From Mycobacteriales bacterium (GTDB lineage: Bacteria > Actinomycetota > Actinomycetes > JAFAQI01), in NCBI GenBank assembly GCA_035550055.1, contig DASZRO010000021.1, forward strand, positions 1 through 36,636: a DNA stretch of 36,636 bases, given 5' to 3'. A program made the translations under genes and the position numbers. Shown piece after piece: positions 1,504 to 32,343 of this stretch (positions are counted from its first letter, which is position 1; each line of letters starts with the position of its first letter). The notes beneath the pieces are model-generated. The model made no database searches. It was not told the DNA's origin and was given only the letters and a program-made list of their open reading frames with translations.

Positions 1504-1581
1504 CGCTGCGTTGGTGGGGCGAACCGCCAGGTGACGCTGCGTTGCTGGGGCGATCGGCCTAGCAACGCAGCGTTGCTGGGG
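1503..1581. repeat. Degenerate 31-bp tandem repeat containing a hairpin, between convergent genes
   Basis: The core ACGCWGCGTTGSTGGGG occurs three times, starting at 1503, 1534 and 1565, a period of exactly 31 bp. Copies 1 and 2 match at 19 of their first 20 bases. The third is cut short after about 17. Within the array ACGCTGCGTTGCT (1534-1546) is perfectly inverted as AGCAACGCAGCGT (1561-1573), giving a 13-bp stem with a 14-nt loop. A smaller AGCAACGC-A-GCGTTGCT palindrome lies at 1561-1577. The array starts in the stop codon of the PHP gene and ends 7 nt before the stop of the convergent amidohydrolase. A bidirectional terminator is the simplest reading, though there is no T-tract. Confidence 0.7.
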
Positions 1582-1587
1582 AAGGGG

Positions 1588-3312
1588 TCAGCTGGTGGGG
1601 ACGGTCACCGTGTCGCGGCCGCTTCGCAGGACCTTGCCGGGGCGGGCGTCGGTGGCCTGGCCGTCACGGATCGTCTCGACGCCATTGACCAGGACCCGCT
1701 TCACGCCGATGCCGCCGGCGGTCAGCCGCGGCGCCCCGCCCGGCAGGTCGAAGTGCAACGCCGCGTCCTCCGACGCCACGGTCTCGGGATCGATCACCAC
1801 GATGTCCGCGTGATAGCCCTCGCGCAGGTAGCCACGGTCGACGAGGCCGAACAGGTCCGCCTGCGCGCCGGTGATCATCCGTACGGCGGACTCGACCGGC
1901 ACCAGCTTGCGGCCCCGAATCATGTCGCCGAGGAACCTCGTCGGGAACGGCGCACCCGCCATCCGGTCCAGGTGCGCACCGGCGTCCGATCCGCCGAGCA
2001 TGATGTCGGGCTCGTCCCACGCCGACTGCCGCAGCGCCCAGGTGTCGGGGTCGTTGTCGTTCGGCATCGGCCAGAGCACGGTACGAAGATCGTCGGCGAT
2101 CACGATGTCGAGCAGGCAGTCGAACGGGTCCTGCCCACGCTCCGCGGCGATGTCCTTCACGACGCGGCCCTTCAGACCGTCGTTCTCCGGCGCGTAGGTG
2201 TCGCCGATGACGTAGCGACCGAACGAGCCGAGCCGCTTGAACACGCCGGCCTCCGGCGCGTTGACCAGCTCGACCATCTTCGCCCGCGTCGCCGGATCCG
2301 ACAGCCGCTTGATGCGCTCCTCGACCGGGCACTGCAGGATCTCGCCCCACCCTGGGATCAGCCACAGTCCGCAGAAGTTGAGCAGGCTCATGTTCATCGG
2401 CACGAGGACCGGCATCGTCAGCGCGACCACCCGCCCACCGAGCTCGCGGGCCCGCGTCGAGGCCTGCAGCTGGCGCGGGATGCGGTCGGGCTCGCGCGAG
2501 TCGATCGTCAGCAGGTTCCAGTTCAGCGAACGGTTCGCCGCCGCCGACATCTCGGCGAGCAGATCGATCTCGGAGTCCTCGAACTTGTCGAGGCAGCCCG
2601 ACACGATGCCTTCCAGGAAGGTCCCCTCGTGCTCACCCACCGCCGTACACAGCGCGAGCAGCTCGTCCTTGCCCGCCATCCGCGAGGCGACCGGCTTGCC
2701 CTCACCGTCTGAATGAGTGCGGGACAAGGTTGTCGAGAAGCCGAGACCGCCTGCCTCGATCGACTCGTGGAGTACGGCGACGAGCTGCTTGATCTCGTCA
2801 TCGGTCGCCTCGCGATCGGTCGCCTCAGCCCCCATCACGTAGCGCCGGATCGCACAGTGTCCGACCAGGAACCCGGCGTTGACCGCGAGGTCCGCGCGCT
2901 CGACCGCGTCGAGATACTCGGCGAAGGACTCCCAGCTCCACTCGACGCCGGTCTCGAGCGCCTCGAGCGGCATCCCCTCGACCTTCTGCATCATCCGCCG
3001 GATGTAGTCGGCGTCTTCCGGTTTCAACGGCGCCAGCGTGAAGCCGCAGTTGCCGCCGAGCACCGTCGTCACACCGTGCTCGTTGGAGGGCGTGAGCAGC
3101 GGGTCCCAGAACAGCTGTGCGTCGTAGTGCGTGTGGTTGTCGATCACGCCCGGCATCACGATCAGGCCGGCCGCGTCGTAGGTCTCGGCGGCGTCCTCGT
3201 CGACCGACCCGATCGCCACGATCCGGCCGTCGCGCACTGCGACGTCACCGACGTACGACGGGCCCCCCGTCCCGTCGACGACGGTTGCCCCCTTGATCAG
3301 GTAGTCGAGCAT
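1588..3312 (-). CDS. Amidohydrolase, N-acyl-D-amino-acid deacylase-like
   Basis: A 574-residue metal-dependent hydrolase. It opens with the small beta-sandwich strand pattern of the family (LIKGATVVDGTGGPSYVGDVAVRDGRI), then a TIM-barrel start, MPGVIDNHTHYDAQ, carrying the HxH metal ligands near residues 60-62. A late GGSDAGAHLDRM segment supplies the usual Asp and His. The length and the split-domain plan match the D-aminoacylase/dihydroorotase-like group (amidohydrolase family 3). Substrate is unknown; in this context it might hydrolyse an amide, lactone or cyclic intermediate. The ATG at 3312-3310 overlaps the last base of the upstream gene's TGA, so the two are probably translationally coupled. 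The operon is likely controlled by the palindrome at 4551-4565. Confidence 0.8.
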   Translation of the reverse strand: MLDYLIKGATVVDGTGGPSYVGDVAVRDGRIVAIGSVDEDAAETYDAAGLIVMPGVIDNHTHYDAQLFWDPLLTPSNEHGVTTVLGGNCGFTLAPLKPEDADYIRRMMQKVEGMPLEALETGVEWSWESFAEYLDAVERADLAVNAGFLVGHCAIRRYVMGAEATDREATDDEIKQLVAVLHESIEAGGLGFSTTLSRTHSDGEGKPVASRMAGKDELLALCTAVGEHEGTFLEGIVSGCLDKFEDSEIDLLAEMSAAANRSLNWNLLTIDSREPDRIPRQLQASTRARELGGRVVALTMPVLVPMNMSLLNFCGLWLIPGWGEILQCPVEERIKRLSDPATRAKMVELVNAPEAGVFKRLGSFGRYVIGDTYAPENDGLKGRVVKDIAAERGQDPFDCLLDIVIADDLRTVLWPMPNDNDPDTWALRQSAWDEPDIMLGGSDAGAHLDRMAGAPFPTRFLGDMIRGRKLVPVESAVRMITGAQADLFGLVDRGYLREGYHADIVVIDPETVASEDAALHFDLPGGAPRLTAGGIGVKRVLVNGVETIRDGQATDARPGKVLRSGRDTVTVPTS

Positions 3313-4529
3313 CAGCGCTTCCAGCGTCCTTCGGGTGTGAGGTCGTAGAACCGGATGGCGTTGCCACGCACGATCTTTTCGACGATGTCGTCGTCGAGGT
3401 GCTTCATCTGCTGCTCGGCCACCGCGCGGGTGTTGGGCCAGGTGGAGTCCGAGTGCGGGTAGTCGCTCTCATACGCGACGTTGTTCACGCCGATCGCCTC
3501 GATGTTCATCAGGCCGTGCGGGTCGTCGAAGAAGCAGCCGAGCACGTGCTCGTAGTACAGCTCCGACGGCGGCCGCTTCACGGTGTCGGCGACACCGCCC
3601 CATCCGCGGTTCTCCTCCCACACCACATCGGCGCGGTGCAGGACATAGGGAATCCAGCCGATCGAGCCCTCGGAGAAGGCGATCTTCAAGGTCGGGAACC
3701 GCTCGAGTGCCCCGCACATCAACCAGTCGACGAGGGAGTAGCAGGAGTTCGCGAACGTCAGTGTCGAGCCGACCGCGGCGGGCGCGTCCTTCGACGTCGA
3801 CGGCATCTTCGACGACGACCCGATGTGCATGTTGATCACCGTGCCGGTCTCGTCACACGCGGCGAAGAACGGATCCCAGTAACGGTTCTTGTCGTGCACG
3901 CTCGGCAGCTCGAGGAACGGCGGAATCTCGGAGAAGCAGGTCGCACGTACGCCGCGGGCGGCGTTGCGGCGTACCTCCTCGGCGGCGAGCTCGGCATCCC
4001 ACAGCGGCACGATGATCAGCGGGATCAGCCGGCCGTCGGCGTCGCCACACCACTCCTCGACCTGGAAGTCGTTGTAGGCCTTCACGCACTCGAGCGCGAC
4101 GTCTTTGTCCTTGGCCTCCAGGAACGTCTGGCCGCAGAACCGCGGGAACGTCGGGAAGCACATCTGTGACTCGGTCCAGTTGGTGTCCATGTCCTCGAGG
4201 CGCTCCTTCACGGAGTACGCCCCGGTGCGCATCTGGTCGTAGCCCACCAGGCGCAGGTCGACCTCGTCTCGGTCGAAGCCGACGGAGGCGTCGAGGCGCA
4301 TCAGCGGCCGCTTGAGGTCTTCGTACAGCCACCACGCAACGTCCGGTCCACTTCCCGGCTCGCCCATCGACACCGTCAGCTTCCCGCCGACGAACGTAAC
4401 ATCGCCCTTGGGTGCGAAGACGACCTTCGGAGCCTTCTCCTTCATGGCGGCCGGCACCCGGTCCTGCCAGAGGTTGGGAGGCTCGACGACATGGTCGTCG
4501 ACCGACACGATCTTGGGAAACTGCTCCAT
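3312..4529 (-). CDS. Amidohydrolase 2 family metal-dependent hydrolase/decarboxylase
   Basis: A 405-residue protein starting MEQFPKIVSVDDHVVEPPNLW, where DDHVVEPPxLW is the N-terminal signature of a large actinobacterial branch of amidohydrolase family 2 (PF04909; relatives are hydrolases or aromatic-acid decarboxylases). Later INMHIGSSS supplies a probable metal-binding His and YESDYPHSDSTWP the catalytic Asp region. The frame stays open upstream to 4718, but the family homology begins at the chosen ATG, and TAAAGT (4542-4537 on the minus strand) lies 7 nt before it, fitting a leaderless transcript. CTGACG at 4565-4560 could act as the -35 with a 17-bp spacer, so the operator would sit on this promoter. 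It is first in a two-gene operon. Substrate is unknown. Confidence 0.82.
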   Translation of the reverse strand: MEQFPKIVSVDDHVVEPPNLWQDRVPAAMKEKAPKVVFAPKGDVTFVGGKLTVSMGEPGSGPDVAWWLYEDLKRPLMRLDASVGFDRDEVDLRLVGYDQMRTGAYSVKERLEDMDTNWTESQMCFPTFPRFCGQTFLEAKDKDVALECVKAYNDFQVEEWCGDADGRLIPLIIVPLWDAELAAEEVRRNAARGVRATCFSEIPPFLELPSVHDKNRYWDPFFAACDETGTVINMHIGSSSKMPSTSKDAPAAVGSTLTFANSCYSLVDWLMCGALERFPTLKIAFSEGSIGWIPYVLHRADVVWEENRGWGGVADTVKRPPSELYYEHVLGCFFDDPHGLMNIEAIGVNNVAYESDYPHSDSTWPNTRAVAEQQMKHLDDDIVEKIVRGNAIRFYDLTPEGRWKR

Positions 4530-7743: not shown

Positions 7744-8936
7744 ACGATCTCGACCTGTCCGATCCGGACACCTACCGCGACGGCCCCCCGCACGCCTACT
7801 TCACCGAGCTGCGGGCGACCGACCCGGTCCACTGGCAGCCGATGCCCGGAAGCGGCCGGGGCGGCTACTGGGCGGTGCTCAAGCACCGCGACGTCGAGAC
7901 GGTCGCGCGTCAGCCACTCCTCTTCTCCTCCGCCGAGCGCGGCGTCGTTCTGGAAGACCTGGAGGGCGAACGACTCGAGCAGATGCGCGGCATGCTGCTC
8001 GCGATGGACCCGCCGAAGCATCGGCAGGTCCGCAAGCCGCTGACGCCTCGCATGACCCCGCGCGCGCTCTCCGGCCTGGCCGACGGGATTCGCGCGATCT
8101 GCAACGACATCTTCGACGAAGCGGCGCAGGCGGCCGAGGTGGAGTTCGTCGACGACGTCGCCGCCGCACTACCCACCCGGGTGGTCGGCGCGCTGATGGG
8201 GCTGCCGCGCGAGGACTGGGTGCGCGTGCACAAGCTCGCCGAGGCGATCACCCACGGCCAGGACCCGGACTACGTGAGCGAAGGTGGCTCGGCAGCGGAC
8301 GCGAGCACCGAGATGGGGATGTACGGCTACCAGTTCGCCGTCGACCGCGCGGCGCGCGAGCCGGTCGGTGACGGCGACATCACCGATGCCCTGCTGGCGG
8401 TGATGGATCCGGTCGCCTTCGCGATGCTGTTCATCCAGCTCGTCACCGCGGGCCAGGACACGACCCAGACGATGCTGTCCTCGGGGTTGCTCGCGCTGCT
8501 CGACCATCCCGACCAGCTGGCACTGCTGCGCGCCGAGCCGAGCCGCATCCCGGCAGCCATCGAGGAGATCGTGCGCTGGGCCAACCCGCTGCACTACTTC
8601 CGGCGTACCGCGACGGAGGACACGGTGATCGGCGACACGAAGATCGCGGCGGGCGACGCGGTGGCGATGTACTACTCGTCCTGCAACCGCGACGAGGCGG
8701 TCTTCGCCGACAGCCAGGCCTTCGACATCACGCGTACGCCGAACAAGCACCTCGGGTTCGGCCAGGCCGAGCACTTCTGCGTCGGCGTACACCTGGCTCG
8801 CCTGGAGGGCCGCATCTTCTACGAGGAGCTGCTGGCCAGGTTCACCGGTATCGAGCTGGCCGGCGTACCGCAGCGGCTCCGCAGCAACCTCAACAACAGC
8901 TACAAGAGCGTCCCCGTCACCCTCACACCCGCGTGA
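7740..8936 (+). CDS. Cytochrome P450
   Basis: A 398-residue soluble bacterial P450. The I-helix reads AGQDTT (residues 237-242), the K-helix ExxR is EEIVR (Glu276, Arg279) and the heme loop is FGQAEHFCVG with Cys347 as the thiolate ligand. The canonical loop is FGxGxHxC; here the second Gly is Ala. The start is a TTG sharing three bases with the cupin stop region (TTGA), which fixes it as translationally coupled. It probably hydroxylates a hydrophobic substrate using ferredoxin and a reductase not seen in the window. The N-terminus LDLSDPDTYRDGPPHAYFTELR is typical of actinobacterial CYPs of lipid, steroid and terpene metabolism, but the subfamily cannot be fixed here. A long palindrome begins at its stop codon. 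Confidence 0.9.
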   Translation: MNDLDLSDPDTYRDGPPHAYFTELRATDPVHWQPMPGSGRGGYWAVLKHRDVETVARQPLLFSSAERGVVLEDLEGERLEQMRGMLLAMDPPKHRQVRKPLTPRMTPRALSGLADGIRAICNDIFDEAAQAAEVEFVDDVAAALPTRVVGALMGLPREDWVRVHKLAEAITHGQDPDYVSEGGSAADASTEMGMYGYQFAVDRAAREPVGDGDITDALLAVMDPVAFAMLFIQLVTAGQDTTQTMLSSGLLALLDHPDQLALLRAEPSRIPAAIEEIVRWANPLHYFRRTATEDTVIGDTKIAAGDAVAMYYSSCNRDEAVFADSQAFDITRTPNKHLGFGQAEHFCVGVHLARLEGRIFYEELLARFTGIELAGVPQRLRSNLNNSYKSVPVTLTPA

Positions 8937-8991
8937 TCTTGACGCTTTCGGCCTGATGGCAGCGTCATCAGGCCGAAAGCGTCAAGATCAC
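8933..8991. repeat. Perfect 26-bp inverted repeat with 7-nt loop at the P450 stop codon
   Basis: The left arm, 8933-8958 (starts GTGATCTTGACGC, ends GGCCTGATG), is matched base for base by the right arm at 8966-8991. The loop GCAGCGT occupies 8959-8965. The left arm contains the P450 stop codon (8934-8936). No T-tract follows. It could terminate transcription in both directions, or be a copy of a dispersed intergenic palindrome. A perfect 26-bp stem is longer than a terminator needs. Confidence 0.85.
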
Positions 8992-9041
8992 CGGGGACGG
9001 TAGACCGTTGTGAGGTCACGCGCGGCACCGTACTCTGCAAC

Positions 9042-9066
9042 CTGACGGAACCTGACGAGGCGTCAG
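9042..9066. promoter_or_regulatory. Operator copy 2 with an extra half-site, upstream of the NMO gene
   Basis: CTGACGAGGCGTCAG (9052-9066) is a perfect copy of the palindrome. A third half-site, CTGACG, lies at 9042-9047, exactly 10 bp (one helical turn) upstream in direct orientation. TACTCT at 9031-9036 may be the -10 box, in which case the operator would lie downstream of the transcription start; this promoter assignment is weak. The first gene downstream starts at 9126. Confidence 0.75.
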
Positions 9067-9125
9067 AAACTGTGTCGCCGGTGACCCGAGTGGTCACCGG
9101 GACATCTGAGACGGAGGCTGCAAGC

Positions 9126-10253
9126 GTGCGTACCCCGGTCTGCGAGAAGCTCGGGATCGAGTTCCCGATCTTCGCGTTCTCCCACTGCCGCGACGTGGTG
9201 GCTGCGGTCAGCCGCGCCGGCGGGTTCGGGGTGCTCGGCGCCCTGGCGTTCACGCCGGAGGAGCTCGAGATCGAGCTGAAGTGGATCGAGGAGCACGTCG
9301 AGGGCAAGCCGTACGGCGTCGACCTCGTGATGCCCGCCAACTACATCGGCAAGGGCGGCAAGCAGCCGTCCGAGGAAGAGCTGCGGGCGATGATCCCCCA
9401 GGAGTACTGGGACTTCCTCGAAAGCATCATGCAGGAGTACAACGTCCCGCCGCTGCCGGAGGACCTGCAAAACGACCGCGCCAAGGCCGCGGGCCTCGGC
9501 GTCGACGACCAGGCGGGCCGCTCCGTCGACGTCGCGCTGAGCTACCCGAACGTCCGGCTGCTCGTCAACGCGCTCGGCCCGCCGCCGGAGGACGTCGTCA
9601 AGAAGGCGCACGACCACGGGGTCCTGGTCGGCGCCCTGATCGGCAACAAGCACCACGCCGAGAAGCAGATCGAAATCGGCGTGGACATCCTGGTCGCCCA
9701 GGGCGGCGAGGCAGGCGGCCACACCGGTGACGTCGCCACGATGGTCCTCGTGCCCGAGATCGTCGACGCGGTCGGCGACCGCGTCCCCGTCCTCGCCGCC
9801 GGCGGCATCGGGTGCGGCCGCCAGATGGCAGCCGCCTTCGCGCTCGGCGCGCAGGGCGTGTGGACCGGTTCGATCTGGCTGACCGTCGCGGAGGCCGACA
9901 CCCAGCCCGAGCCCCTCGCCAACCTGCTCGCCGCCGACTCGCGCGGCACGGTCCGGTCGCGGACCATGACCGGCAAGCCGGCGCGCCAGCTGCGCACCGC
10001 GTGGACCGACGCCTGGGAACGCGAGGGCGCACCCAAGACTCTCCCGATGCCGCTGCAGGGAATCCTGTGGAACGCGATGGCCCGCCGGGTCAGCCGGTCG
10101 AGGACGAAGGAGCTCTCCGGCTTCCCGGTCGGGCAGATCGTCGGGCGCATGAACAAGGTCCGCCCGACCCAGGAGGTCATGCACGACCTGGTCGAGGAGT
10201 GGATCGCGACCACCGAACGGCTGTCCGCAATGCTCGACGAGACCTCGGCCTGA
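9126..10253 (+). CDS. Nitronate monooxygenase-family FMN protein
   Basis: A 375-residue TIM-barrel flavoprotein. GTPs of the family are seen as RTPVCEKLGIEFPIFAF at the start, GGFGVLGA near residue 35, a central VAQGGEAGGHTGDV segment (FMN phosphate region and the His used as base in class I/II enzymes), and VPVLAAGGIGCGRQMAAAFALGAQGVWTGS. This matches the nitronate monooxygenase/2-nitropropane dioxygenase fold. Many actinomycete members sit in steroid or lipid catabolic clusters and probably act on substrates other than nitroalkanes. GTG at 9126 was chosen because GGAGG (9113-9117) lies 8 nt ahead; the frame extends upstream to 9072 without family similarity. The probable operator lies at 9052-9066. 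It is followed after 7 nt by a PPOX-family gene. Confidence 0.85.
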   Translation: MRTPVCEKLGIEFPIFAFSHCRDVVAAVSRAGGFGVLGALAFTPEELEIELKWIEEHVEGKPYGVDLVMPANYIGKGGKQPSEEELRAMIPQEYWDFLESIMQEYNVPPLPEDLQNDRAKAAGLGVDDQAGRSVDVALSYPNVRLLVNALGPPPEDVVKKAHDHGVLVGALIGNKHHAEKQIEIGVDILVAQGGEAGGHTGDVATMVLVPEIVDAVGDRVPVLAAGGIGCGRQMAAAFALGAQGVWTGSIWLTVAEADTQPEPLANLLAADSRGTVRSRTMTGKPARQLRTAWTDAWEREGAPKTLPMPLQGILWNAMARRVSRSRTKELSGFPVGQIVGRMNKVRPTQEVMHDLVEEWIATTERLSAMLDETSA

Positions 10254-23384: not shown

Positions 23385-23465
23385 CGAAGTAGCACACAAC
23401 TACCTTCAATACGCCCCAGTTGTGGTCACTTGTCCGGTTCAGGAGCCACGTTGTGTGCTACTTCG
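23385..23465. repeat. 81-bp element, copy 1 (16-bp terminal inverted repeats)
   Basis: The left end CGAAGTAGCACACAAC (23385-23400) is perfectly inverted at the right end GTTGTGTGCTACTTCG (23450-23465). Read on the minus strand, the element is CGAAGTAGCACACAAC, 10 nt, AACCGGACA, 30 nt, then the inverse end. Copy 2 at 32263-32343 has the same length, ends and internal 9-mer offset, but otherwise different interior sequence. No open frame or recognisable transposase is present. Confidence 0.85.
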
Positions 23466-31424: not shown

Positions 31425-32270
31425 ATGCGCCCGGCCACCGTGTGCGCGGCGCTCGTCGTCGTACTCAACCTCCTGGGCGCGCCCGGCAATGCCCTCGCCG
31501 CCGCGCATCAGCCACCGCGCACCGCGGTGCGGCCTTATCCGTTGCAGACCTTGCAGGTGCCGCGGCGCGCCGACGTCGTCTTCACTGTCCCGCCCCGGAC
31601 GCCGCCGGCTCCCGGGTTTCCCGCATTGCCGAAGGCGTTGGGCGACTACTTCGCGCTCTACTTCCCCGCGATCGCGCAGGGGTGGGTGAACATGCGCGAT
31701 CCCGGTTCGGCGTACGGCTGGTCCTCGCAGTTCCCCTTGATCGGCAGCAAGCGGTTTCCGGACCTGGTCCCGCACCGCCGCTACCGCATGCTGGTGGCGG
31801 TCCAGCGCCCCGGGCGGATCCAGCTGCCGTTCCCGATGCACGTGTTGCGGGTACGCCGTACCGCGTTTCGGGTCGGCGCTGTGACGCATCCGATCCGGTT
31901 GCCGGCACCGGCGAGCCCAGTCGCGATCGGCGCAGCGCCCGACACCCTGCACGACTTCGCCGTCGAGTCGACCGGGATCGTCCTCGACTGGGCCGCGGAC
32001 CCTTCGCTCACCGAGTCGGTGCAGGGGGACGCGTGCCCGGCCGCCCTGGTGGTCGGCGCTCTCGCCTGCCCGAAACGCAACTTGTCGACCTACGTCATCA
32101 CCCAGACCGGGTTCGGCCGCGGCACCCCGCTTCAGGTCACGATCGGCGAGGGCTTCGACCGACCCGTCGACGCGGCGTACCTCAGCAGCTACGCCGCGAA
32201 CCTCCCGACGCCGTTCGACCGAGCGACGATCCTCGCCTTCGCCATCACCCCCCGCCCCCGTTCGAAGTAG
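31425..32270 (+). CDS. Secreted protein of unknown function
   Basis: A 281-residue secreted protein. RPATVCAALVVVLNLLGAPGNALAAAH is a signal peptide cleaving near residue 26. The mature part is rich in Pro, Val and aromatic residues with beta-strand spacing and Cys pairs (DACPAALVVGALACPKRN), with no recognised domain. It is divergent from the MarR gene and its promoter region overlaps the MarR palindromes, so it may be a MarR target. A weak -10, TAAGAC (31412-31417), lies 7 nt before the ATG. The last eight bases, including the TAG, are inside the left terminal repeat of the second 81-bp element. Confidence 0.62.
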   Translation: MRPATVCAALVVVLNLLGAPGNALAAAHQPPRTAVRPYPLQTLQVPRRADVVFTVPPRTPPAPGFPALPKALGDYFALYFPAIAQGWVNMRDPGSAYGWSSQFPLIGSKRFPDLVPHRRYRMLVAVQRPGRIQLPFPMHVLRVRRTAFRVGAVTHPIRLPAPASPVAIGAAPDTLHDFAVESTGIVLDWAADPSLTESVQGDACPAALVVGALACPKRNLSTYVITQTGFGRGTPLQVTIGEGFDRPVDAAYLSSYAANLPTPFDRATILAFAITPRPRSK

Positions 32271-32343
32271 CACACAACCGCCGTACCTAACCGGACATCC
32301 GGGGGCAAGCGCGGCAATCCGCCGCGGGTTGTGTGCTACTTCG
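32263..32343. repeat. 81-bp element, copy 2
   Basis: CGAAGTAGCACACAAC (32263-32278, extending one base) and its perfect inverse GTTGTGTGCTACTTCG (32328-32343) bound an 81-bp block. The plus strand reads end, 10 nt, AACCGGACA, 30 nt, end, matching copy 1 (23385-23465) read on the minus strand. The stop codon TAG (32268-32270) of the secreted protein is inside the left end. The interior also contains GCGG and CCGC self-complementary stretches. Confidence 0.85.

Follow-up and report, generated by a model that had tools for sequence, protein, structure and literature searches.

A perfect palindrome at a P450 stop codon belongs to a dispersed hairpin family with a putative DUF559/AbiEi-type nuclease partner

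As far as the available parts of the sources describe them, REP-type repeats are common and include a large class, the CGTC REPs, without a known enzyme (PMC3733652); REPs are located downstream of genes, and those ≤15 nt from a stop codon can stall ribosomes (PMC3733652, PMC12306157). REPINs, in the available text, consist of a variable spacer with compensatory changes between conserved, inverted ends whose distance is fixed, their copies are extragenic and dispersed, and the gene for a DNA-processing enzyme is flanked by copies (PMC3116915). An EDxHD homing nuclease, in the available text, binds as a dimer to a target that spans nearly 60 bp (PMC3943268).

Here, we present an analysis of a perfect palindrome in a stretch of 36,636 nt of DNA (the window), based on 13 genomes of the order, including the window's own genome (G000) and its sister species (G001). 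On balance, we favor the reading that this palindrome, as a non-autonomous copy, belongs to a family of hairpins dispersed in a poorly known group of actinobacteria and that a DUF559/AbiEi-type nuclease is its likely partner. Palindrome families often flank genes for DUF559-type nucleases, which suggests an enzyme-driven kind of mobile repeat; it would best be read as REPIN/RAYT-like or homing-like, with the DUF559 nuclease both spreading and renewing its palindromic target.

The sequence-only reading had described two perfect 26-bp arms that span the P450 stop codon and lack a T-tract. This description is accurate: positions 8933-8958 pair with 8966-8991 at zero mismatches around a 7-nt loop, the TGA lies inside the left arm (Table 1), a T-tract is absent, and a terminator scan does not flag 8933-8991. 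Once mismatches are allowed, the inverted repeat reaches further into both flanks. By chance, 4.7e-9 perfect 26-bp palindromes with a loop of 0-20 nt are expected in the window, where the next longest perfect arm is 13 bp; in 20 Markov sequences of window length, the longest is 13 bp at most. As RNA, the palindrome folds at -62.9 kcal/mol (z -13.3).

Table 1. Features of the window that bear on the palindromes
Feature	Position	Strand	Remark
Family 1 palindrome copy, 59 nt	8933..8991		outer arm GTGATCTTGACG, inner arm CTTTCGGCCTGATG, 7-nt loop
Imperfect stem extension	8928..8996		into C-rich / G-rich flanks
TGA stop codon of the P450 gene	8934..8936	+	provided by the palindrome's left arm
Cytochrome P450 gene	7740..8936	+	3' end inside the palindrome
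Nitronate monooxygenase family gene	9126..10253	+	next downstream; start from own gene caller, longest ORF begins 9072
Family 2 palindrome copy, 79 nt	23386..23464		arms GAAGTAGCACACAAC
Family 2 palindrome copy, 79 nt	32264..32342		

Orthologs of the P450, 63-74% identical to the window protein, are encoded in G011, G010, G008, G009, and G006. None of them has such a palindrome within 230 nt 3' of the stop codon, and the palindrome at this stop was seen in G000 and G001 only. Four of the five orthologous proteins end within ~3 residues of the window protein and the G008 protein ~10 residues later; because these ends nearly coincide, the palindrome does not noticeably truncate the P450. A recent insertion, raised earlier as one option, is not supported at this site, since the sister species has a hairpin with a different inner sequence at the same P450 stop. 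A function, the other option raised, would agree with the location of the copies and with the unchanging outer arm. In G001, an extra F420H2_quin_red family gene (L087 1863-2285) lies between the P450 palindrome and the next gene; window positions 8992-9125 are without it.

It had also been proposed that the palindrome is a copy of a dispersed family, to be recognised by searching for its arm elsewhere, and this search returned 18 full copies in the window's own genome and relatives in 4 other genomes of the order. By similarity, we found 19 places in G000, comprising 17 full copies, all of 59 nt, and 2 half or decayed ones; the 59-nt pattern (≤3 mismatches) detected 18 copies, adding C8:33170, in which the inner arms are different. 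In the 17 copies, positions 3-12 and the matching right-arm positions are (nearly) invariant and are followed by YTKTCGGCC and then by a variable 17-nt centre. The 59-nt units have sharp borders, and a single-arm scan of G000 found the arms always paired except at 2 half copies, as far as draft assemblies allow. Identical centres recur at unlinked places in G000 (C55 and both C56 copies; C3 and, as the reverse complement, C14), and the 150-nt flanks of these copies have no similarity, which argues that whole units were copied.

The outer arm is constant across genomes. With the same 59-nt pattern and ≤3 mismatches, GTGATCTTGACG is common to G001 (10 copies), G005 (at least 15), and G010 (7), and G006 has 5 copies with the outer arm in a 70-nt form; the remaining 8 of the 13 genomes of the order matched neither pattern. 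In a sample of 396 genomes of the phylum that lacked these four relatives, the outer arm occurred in G000 only, and no family 1 copy was found on plasmids or, by exact pattern, on viral contigs. Rfam returned only matches below the gathering score, mostly to microRNA hairpins. The sole exact-arm match in a collection of 84,980 species, a Sphingomonas coding sequence, lacks the second arm and was dismissed as chance. Two 60-nt copies (G010 C36:14392 and G005 C28:14482) were picked up only through fetched neighbouring loci; because contigs break inside family 1 palindromes (L185 end and L186 start; G005 C28 and C36), draft assemblies may undercount the elements. Several G006 copies (L093-L096) contain an inner third copy of the motif (GTGATCTCGACGTT) that could pair with either arm. 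On C13 of G001 (L089), identical 59-nt palindromes at 3008-3066 and 3594-3652, 586 nt apart, surround a 120-codon ORF without a Pfam match.

The inner arms are genome specific and covary, i.e., they differ between genomes but remain paired in each copy. Based on 50 copies, the Watson-Crick pairing of positions 13-21 falls from 0.87 inside single copies and 0.86 when copies of the same genome are compared to 0.52 across genomes; for positions 1-12, the corresponding values are 0.96, 0.96, and 0.94. Among 47 sequences, 90.1% of the cells are paired vs 77.3% after shuffling and 29-44% after sliding, and 201 cells are changed on both sides vs 90 in the shuffles, counts that are inflated by the kinship of the copies. 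Arm-to-arm conversion could yield such covariation without selection.

At four G000 sites, namely the window P450, two on C43, and one on C65, a palindrome lies at the same gene end in G001, and the inner arms are different. They follow the type of their own genome and not the ortholog: the inner identities of the four pairs are 0.46, 0.49, 0.51, and 0.49, compared with 0.48 for random cross-species pairs and 0.75 and 0.69 for pairs within a genome. By our estimate, four coincidental independent insertions are unlikely, as the two genomes have thousands of gene ends and only 18 and 10 copies. This argues for replacement on the spot, and judging from their sequences, the copies at shared sites appear to have been overwritten in place; repeated insertion at preferred sites could also have produced them. 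At a tRNA-Leu gene, family 2 repeats the pattern of non-orthologous inner arms between G000 and G001. One gene end carries a family 1 half copy in G000 (C18:3641, L023 2642) and a family 2 copy in G001 (C151, L160 1268-1347). In G001 C152 (L092 1210-2589), the partner of the C65 palindrome doubles as the beginning of a coding sequence: it provides the start and signal-peptide codons of a PI-PLC-like gene that G000 C65 lacks at the corresponding position.

The copies are placed at gene ends. Among 60 copies in fetched loci, annotated with our own gene caller, the neighbouring genes are in tandem in 32 cases, convergent in 21, divergent in 5, and unclear in 2. A gene stop lies on a side of 54 copies, ≤45 nt away in 48, and 17 copies themselves supply the stop as the TGA of G-TGA-TC. 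Copies are preceded by 15 nt rich in C and followed by 15 nt rich in G (0.50 C vs 0.22 G; control gene ends, 0.38 and 0.33), and 21 offset/length combinations on 59 copies revealed no target-site duplication (largest z, 1.93). In 28 tandem copies read on the sense strand, G.U mismatches equal A.C mismatches (18 and 18), and these counts do not point to selection at the RNA level.

Family 2, which is unrelated to family 1, consists of palindromes of 79-80 nt (arms GAAGTAGCACACAAC), with 43 copies in G000 and 13 in G001; its pattern has no match in the 11 other genomes of the order. The arm contains TAG, which often ends the adjacent open frame. Three palindromes in G005 (C36:102485, C87:3797, and C87:7933) have CGTTTCAGCACACAAC arms, of which AGCACACAAC is in common with family 2 of the window's genus. 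Another palindrome in the window (1534-1573), with a CCCCCAGCAACG-type arm, occurs at 3 further places in the surveyed 0.79 Mb of G000, and no DUF559 gene adjoins the copies of this type in that survey. A helical-step spacing, considered for the lengths 59/60, 70, 79-80, and 89, was dropped because 62-nt and 85-nt copies exist.

In the window's own genome, the candidate partner gene (G000:C43:43412-44182) lies on another contig than the window and has a family 1 copy on each side. Pairs of family 1 copies around single genes number 9 within 2.5 kb vs 0.58 expected; with G010 C36 (from a local scan), G001 C178 and G000 C30 (family 2), and G000 C18 (family 3), this gives 13 pairs. The enclosed gene is of the DUF559/AbiEi type in 7 of the 13, a count that is not unbiased because the second palindrome at C30 was looked for because of the gene. 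These genes lie between family 1 palindromes in G000 C43, G001 C118, G006 C168, and G010 C36, between family 2 palindromes in G000 C30 and G001 C178, and between family 3 palindromes in G000 C18; the six family 1 and family 2 cases come from loci chosen for their palindromes. The other 6 pairs enclose no known DUF559 gene: the Pfam scan, which covered five of them (all but the pair G005 C36:138419 and 140828), identified the enclosed genes as cyclase-like and as coding for a DEAD helicase, a transporter, and an FG-GAP protein, and the fifth gene has no Pfam match. At G001 C178, the DUF559 gene, with a palindrome on each side, lies between two flanks that are also present at G000 C113, where they enclose a single palindrome and no such gene; the related DUF559 gene of G000 is located at C30.

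A profile search of 0.79 Mb of G000, including the window, identified 5 DUF559-like ORFs: one on C18 flanked on either side by palindromes of a third family, one at the start of a contig (C95:3-890) with a fourth family on its open side, one on C31 with a 59-nt palindrome at its 3' end, and two without any palindrome. In a survey of 602 G000 genes, the same arm of ≥10 nt was present on both sides only at the C18 DUF559 gene; one other gene reaches 8 nt, with a GC-simple arm. Outside the order, 8 DUF559 loci were found by protein similarity in a plasmid collection, and 20 neighbour genes from five of them served as controls. Matching palindromes (8+ nt) lie on both sides of 5 of the 8 DUF559 genes vs 0 of the 20 neighbours (Fisher, 5.7e-4), i.e., at 3 of 4 loci in Tsukamurella, 2 of 3 in Arthrobacter, and 0 of 1 in Nonomuraea; at L201, one of the five, the shared arm is only 8 nt long. 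Combining both surveys, 6 of 13 DUF559 loci that were not chosen for palindromes have them on both sides vs 1 of 601 genes (1.6e-10), and 7 of the 13 do not; the proportion becomes 6 of 14 once a G005 gene is added. This gene (C36:25011-25987, L243), the sole DUF559-like one found when 0.36 Mb of G005 were examined, is divided between two overlapping frames and has no flanking palindrome, although G005 has at least 15 family 1 copies.

Because a BLAST search with a palindrome as the query may count a single site twice, once per strand, we used the number of other records as the measure of recurrence. Four of the five palindrome families of the two-sided loci outside the order recur in other records (L197 in 7, L196 in 2, L198 in 8, and L201 in 1, the last also at 17 places in its own record). 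The L200 palindrome from Arthrobacter was found in its own record only, at 4 places, perhaps two flanking copies counted on both strands. The family of the one-sided L194 occurs in 1 other record. At L197, the downstream 64-nt palindrome begins directly after the stop codon, as in the window. Among the literature matches listed, with most subscription papers outside the scope, no paper links DUF559 with palindromes.

Most of the proteins have a C-terminal DUF559 or MTES_1575 domain (PF04480, PF18741), in some cases below the curated cut-off, and several have an AbiEi-like region; the protein enclosed in G006 has no Pfam match and resembles the C178 DUF559 protein (E 2e-10) and AbiEi models. 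In the PDB, the DUF559 profile weakly matched 3hrl (E 0.009) and 3r3p, annotated as "Mobile intron protein" (E 0.019), and a single DUF559 member as the query had no relevant match. We take 3r3p to be I-Bth0305I. Palindromes of 57-63 nt accompany the enzymes of group A (48-75% identical), and palindromes of 75-89 nt accompany those of group B (49-65% identical). No viral relatives of the DUF559 proteins were confirmed.

We propose that a cognate pair of palindrome and DUF559 nuclease, operating in the manner of REPIN/RAYT but with a different class of enzyme, accounts for the spread, the paired arms, and the overwriting. The nuclease, probably as a dimer, would recognise the two inverted outer arms at their fixed spacing and would cut there or at a related site. 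Repair of the break by copying from another family member would then spread the element, maintain the pairing of its arms, and replace the inner arm of older copies by the version current in that genome. The copies that persist would be mainly those at gene ends, where they should cause little harm and can provide a stop codon, and where the transcript may fold into a hairpin; a role at transcript ends, as their position might allow, would thus be compatible with a cognate nuclease.

Alternatively, the palindromes could be bidirectional terminators or mRNA 3'-end hairpins that are kept by selection on the RNA and spread by occasional ectopic recombination, with DUF559 genes merely carrying one at each end. 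We consider this unlikely but deserving of some weight, as the gene stops beside 54 of 60 copies (≤45 nt away in 48), the 21 copies between convergent genes, the family 2 copy after a tRNA gene at a shared site, and the very stable stem all fit it, and REPs provide a precedent for a location downstream of genes and for ribosome stalling in the available parts of the sources (PMC3733652, PMC12306157). However, the missing T-tract and the 18 G.U and 18 A.C mismatches in 28 tandem copies argue against it, and it leaves unexplained both the genome-wide homogenisation of the inner arms and why DUF559 genes rather than other genes have matching palindromes at both ends.

AbiEi antitoxins are autoregulators. 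Based on the AbiEi-like region and the palindromes adjoining the DUF559 genes, the proteins might therefore be autoregulators, the palindromes their operators, and the scattered copies a regulon; we find this improbable, because the copies lie at gene ends and not before promoters (divergent in 5 of 60), a palindrome is also present 3' of the DUF559 gene, and the C-terminal nuclease-like domain is left without explanation. A slightly smaller probability still goes to MITE-like elements moved by an ordinary DDE transposase, for which the outer arms would be the terminal repeats. While constant terminal repeats, a variable interior, and dispersed copies are consistent with such elements, the 21 tests gave no target-site duplication, the arms in G000 are paired except at two half copies, and no transposase is among the 25 of 97 Pfam families listed for 52 neighbour proteins. 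Integron-like recombination sites, i.e., palindromes after stops that bracket gene cassettes, would agree with the bracketing of single genes (9 pairs ≤2.5 kb vs 0.58 expected) and with gene gain or loss beside palindromes at three shared sites; however, the copies occur next to ordinary metabolic genes on many different contigs and have symmetric arms, and this reading is very improbable.

If a DUF559 nuclease does spread and renew its palindromic target, this would account for the renewal and homogenisation of gene-end hairpins, assign a role to DUF559/AbiEi proteins, and perhaps provide nucleases with specificity for ~60 bp palindromes. More tentatively, and with somewhat less than even confidence, we propose that actinobacteria harbour a general, undescribed class of selfish or domesticated palindromic repeats of ~26-90 bp, in which every family is propagated by a DUF559/AbiEi nuclease of its own; this nuclease would home by cutting the dispersed target, and repair would copy the newest version. 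If true, gene-end hairpins would undergo genome-wide concerted evolution, with both arms evolving together. The DUF559/AbiEi proteins are a candidate enzyme family for REP-type repeats outside the HUH transposases, with a directly testable target.

Compared with known systems, family 1 is most readily set beside REPIN/RAYT, with which it has in common inverted ends at a fixed distance, a single hairpin, a covarying spacer, dispersed copies, and a copy-flanked enzyme gene. However, the enzyme here is DUF559/AbiEi and not Y1, the arm is one contiguous stretch of 26 bp, stop codons are built in, and copies at shared sites appear overwritten. A Y1 (HUH) transposase/RAYT (Y1_Tnp, PF01797) was found in 0 of the 13 genomes of the order vs 5 of 14 control genomes, and the GTAG tag is absent from the outer ends of family 1, which read GTGATC; family 2 has the GTAG letters, but paired. 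Because the Y1 enzyme and the GTAG tag are both absent, we do not regard family 1 as a member of REPIN/RAYT. Like MITEs, the palindromes are short, with inverted ends and no coding capacity; in contrast to MITEs, no target-site duplication was found, and the arm scan of G000 showed no source transposon as far as a draft assembly allows. They differ from intrinsic terminators in that no T-tract follows the stem-loop. The CGTC-tagged REPs are similar in that they, too, are palindromes scattered 3' of genes and have no transposase known to move them; in the available part of the source, these have an unpaired CGTC tag, a stem of 8-9 bp, and a loop of 4-5 nt (PMC3733652), whereas here the CGTC letters are paired in a 26-bp stem. 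In contrast to EDxHD homing endonucleases such as I-Bth0305I, the DUF559 gene is not located within an intron, the putative target is the dispersed palindrome itself, and an AbiEi-like region is present. The likeness to these enzymes lies in the weak match of the DUF559 profile to 3r3p and in a target that, as far as the available text describes it, spans nearly 60 bp and so comes close to the 59-nt palindromes. DUF559 domains are encoded beside palindromes, an arrangement that would resemble a homing nuclease gene next to its target if the proteins cut them.
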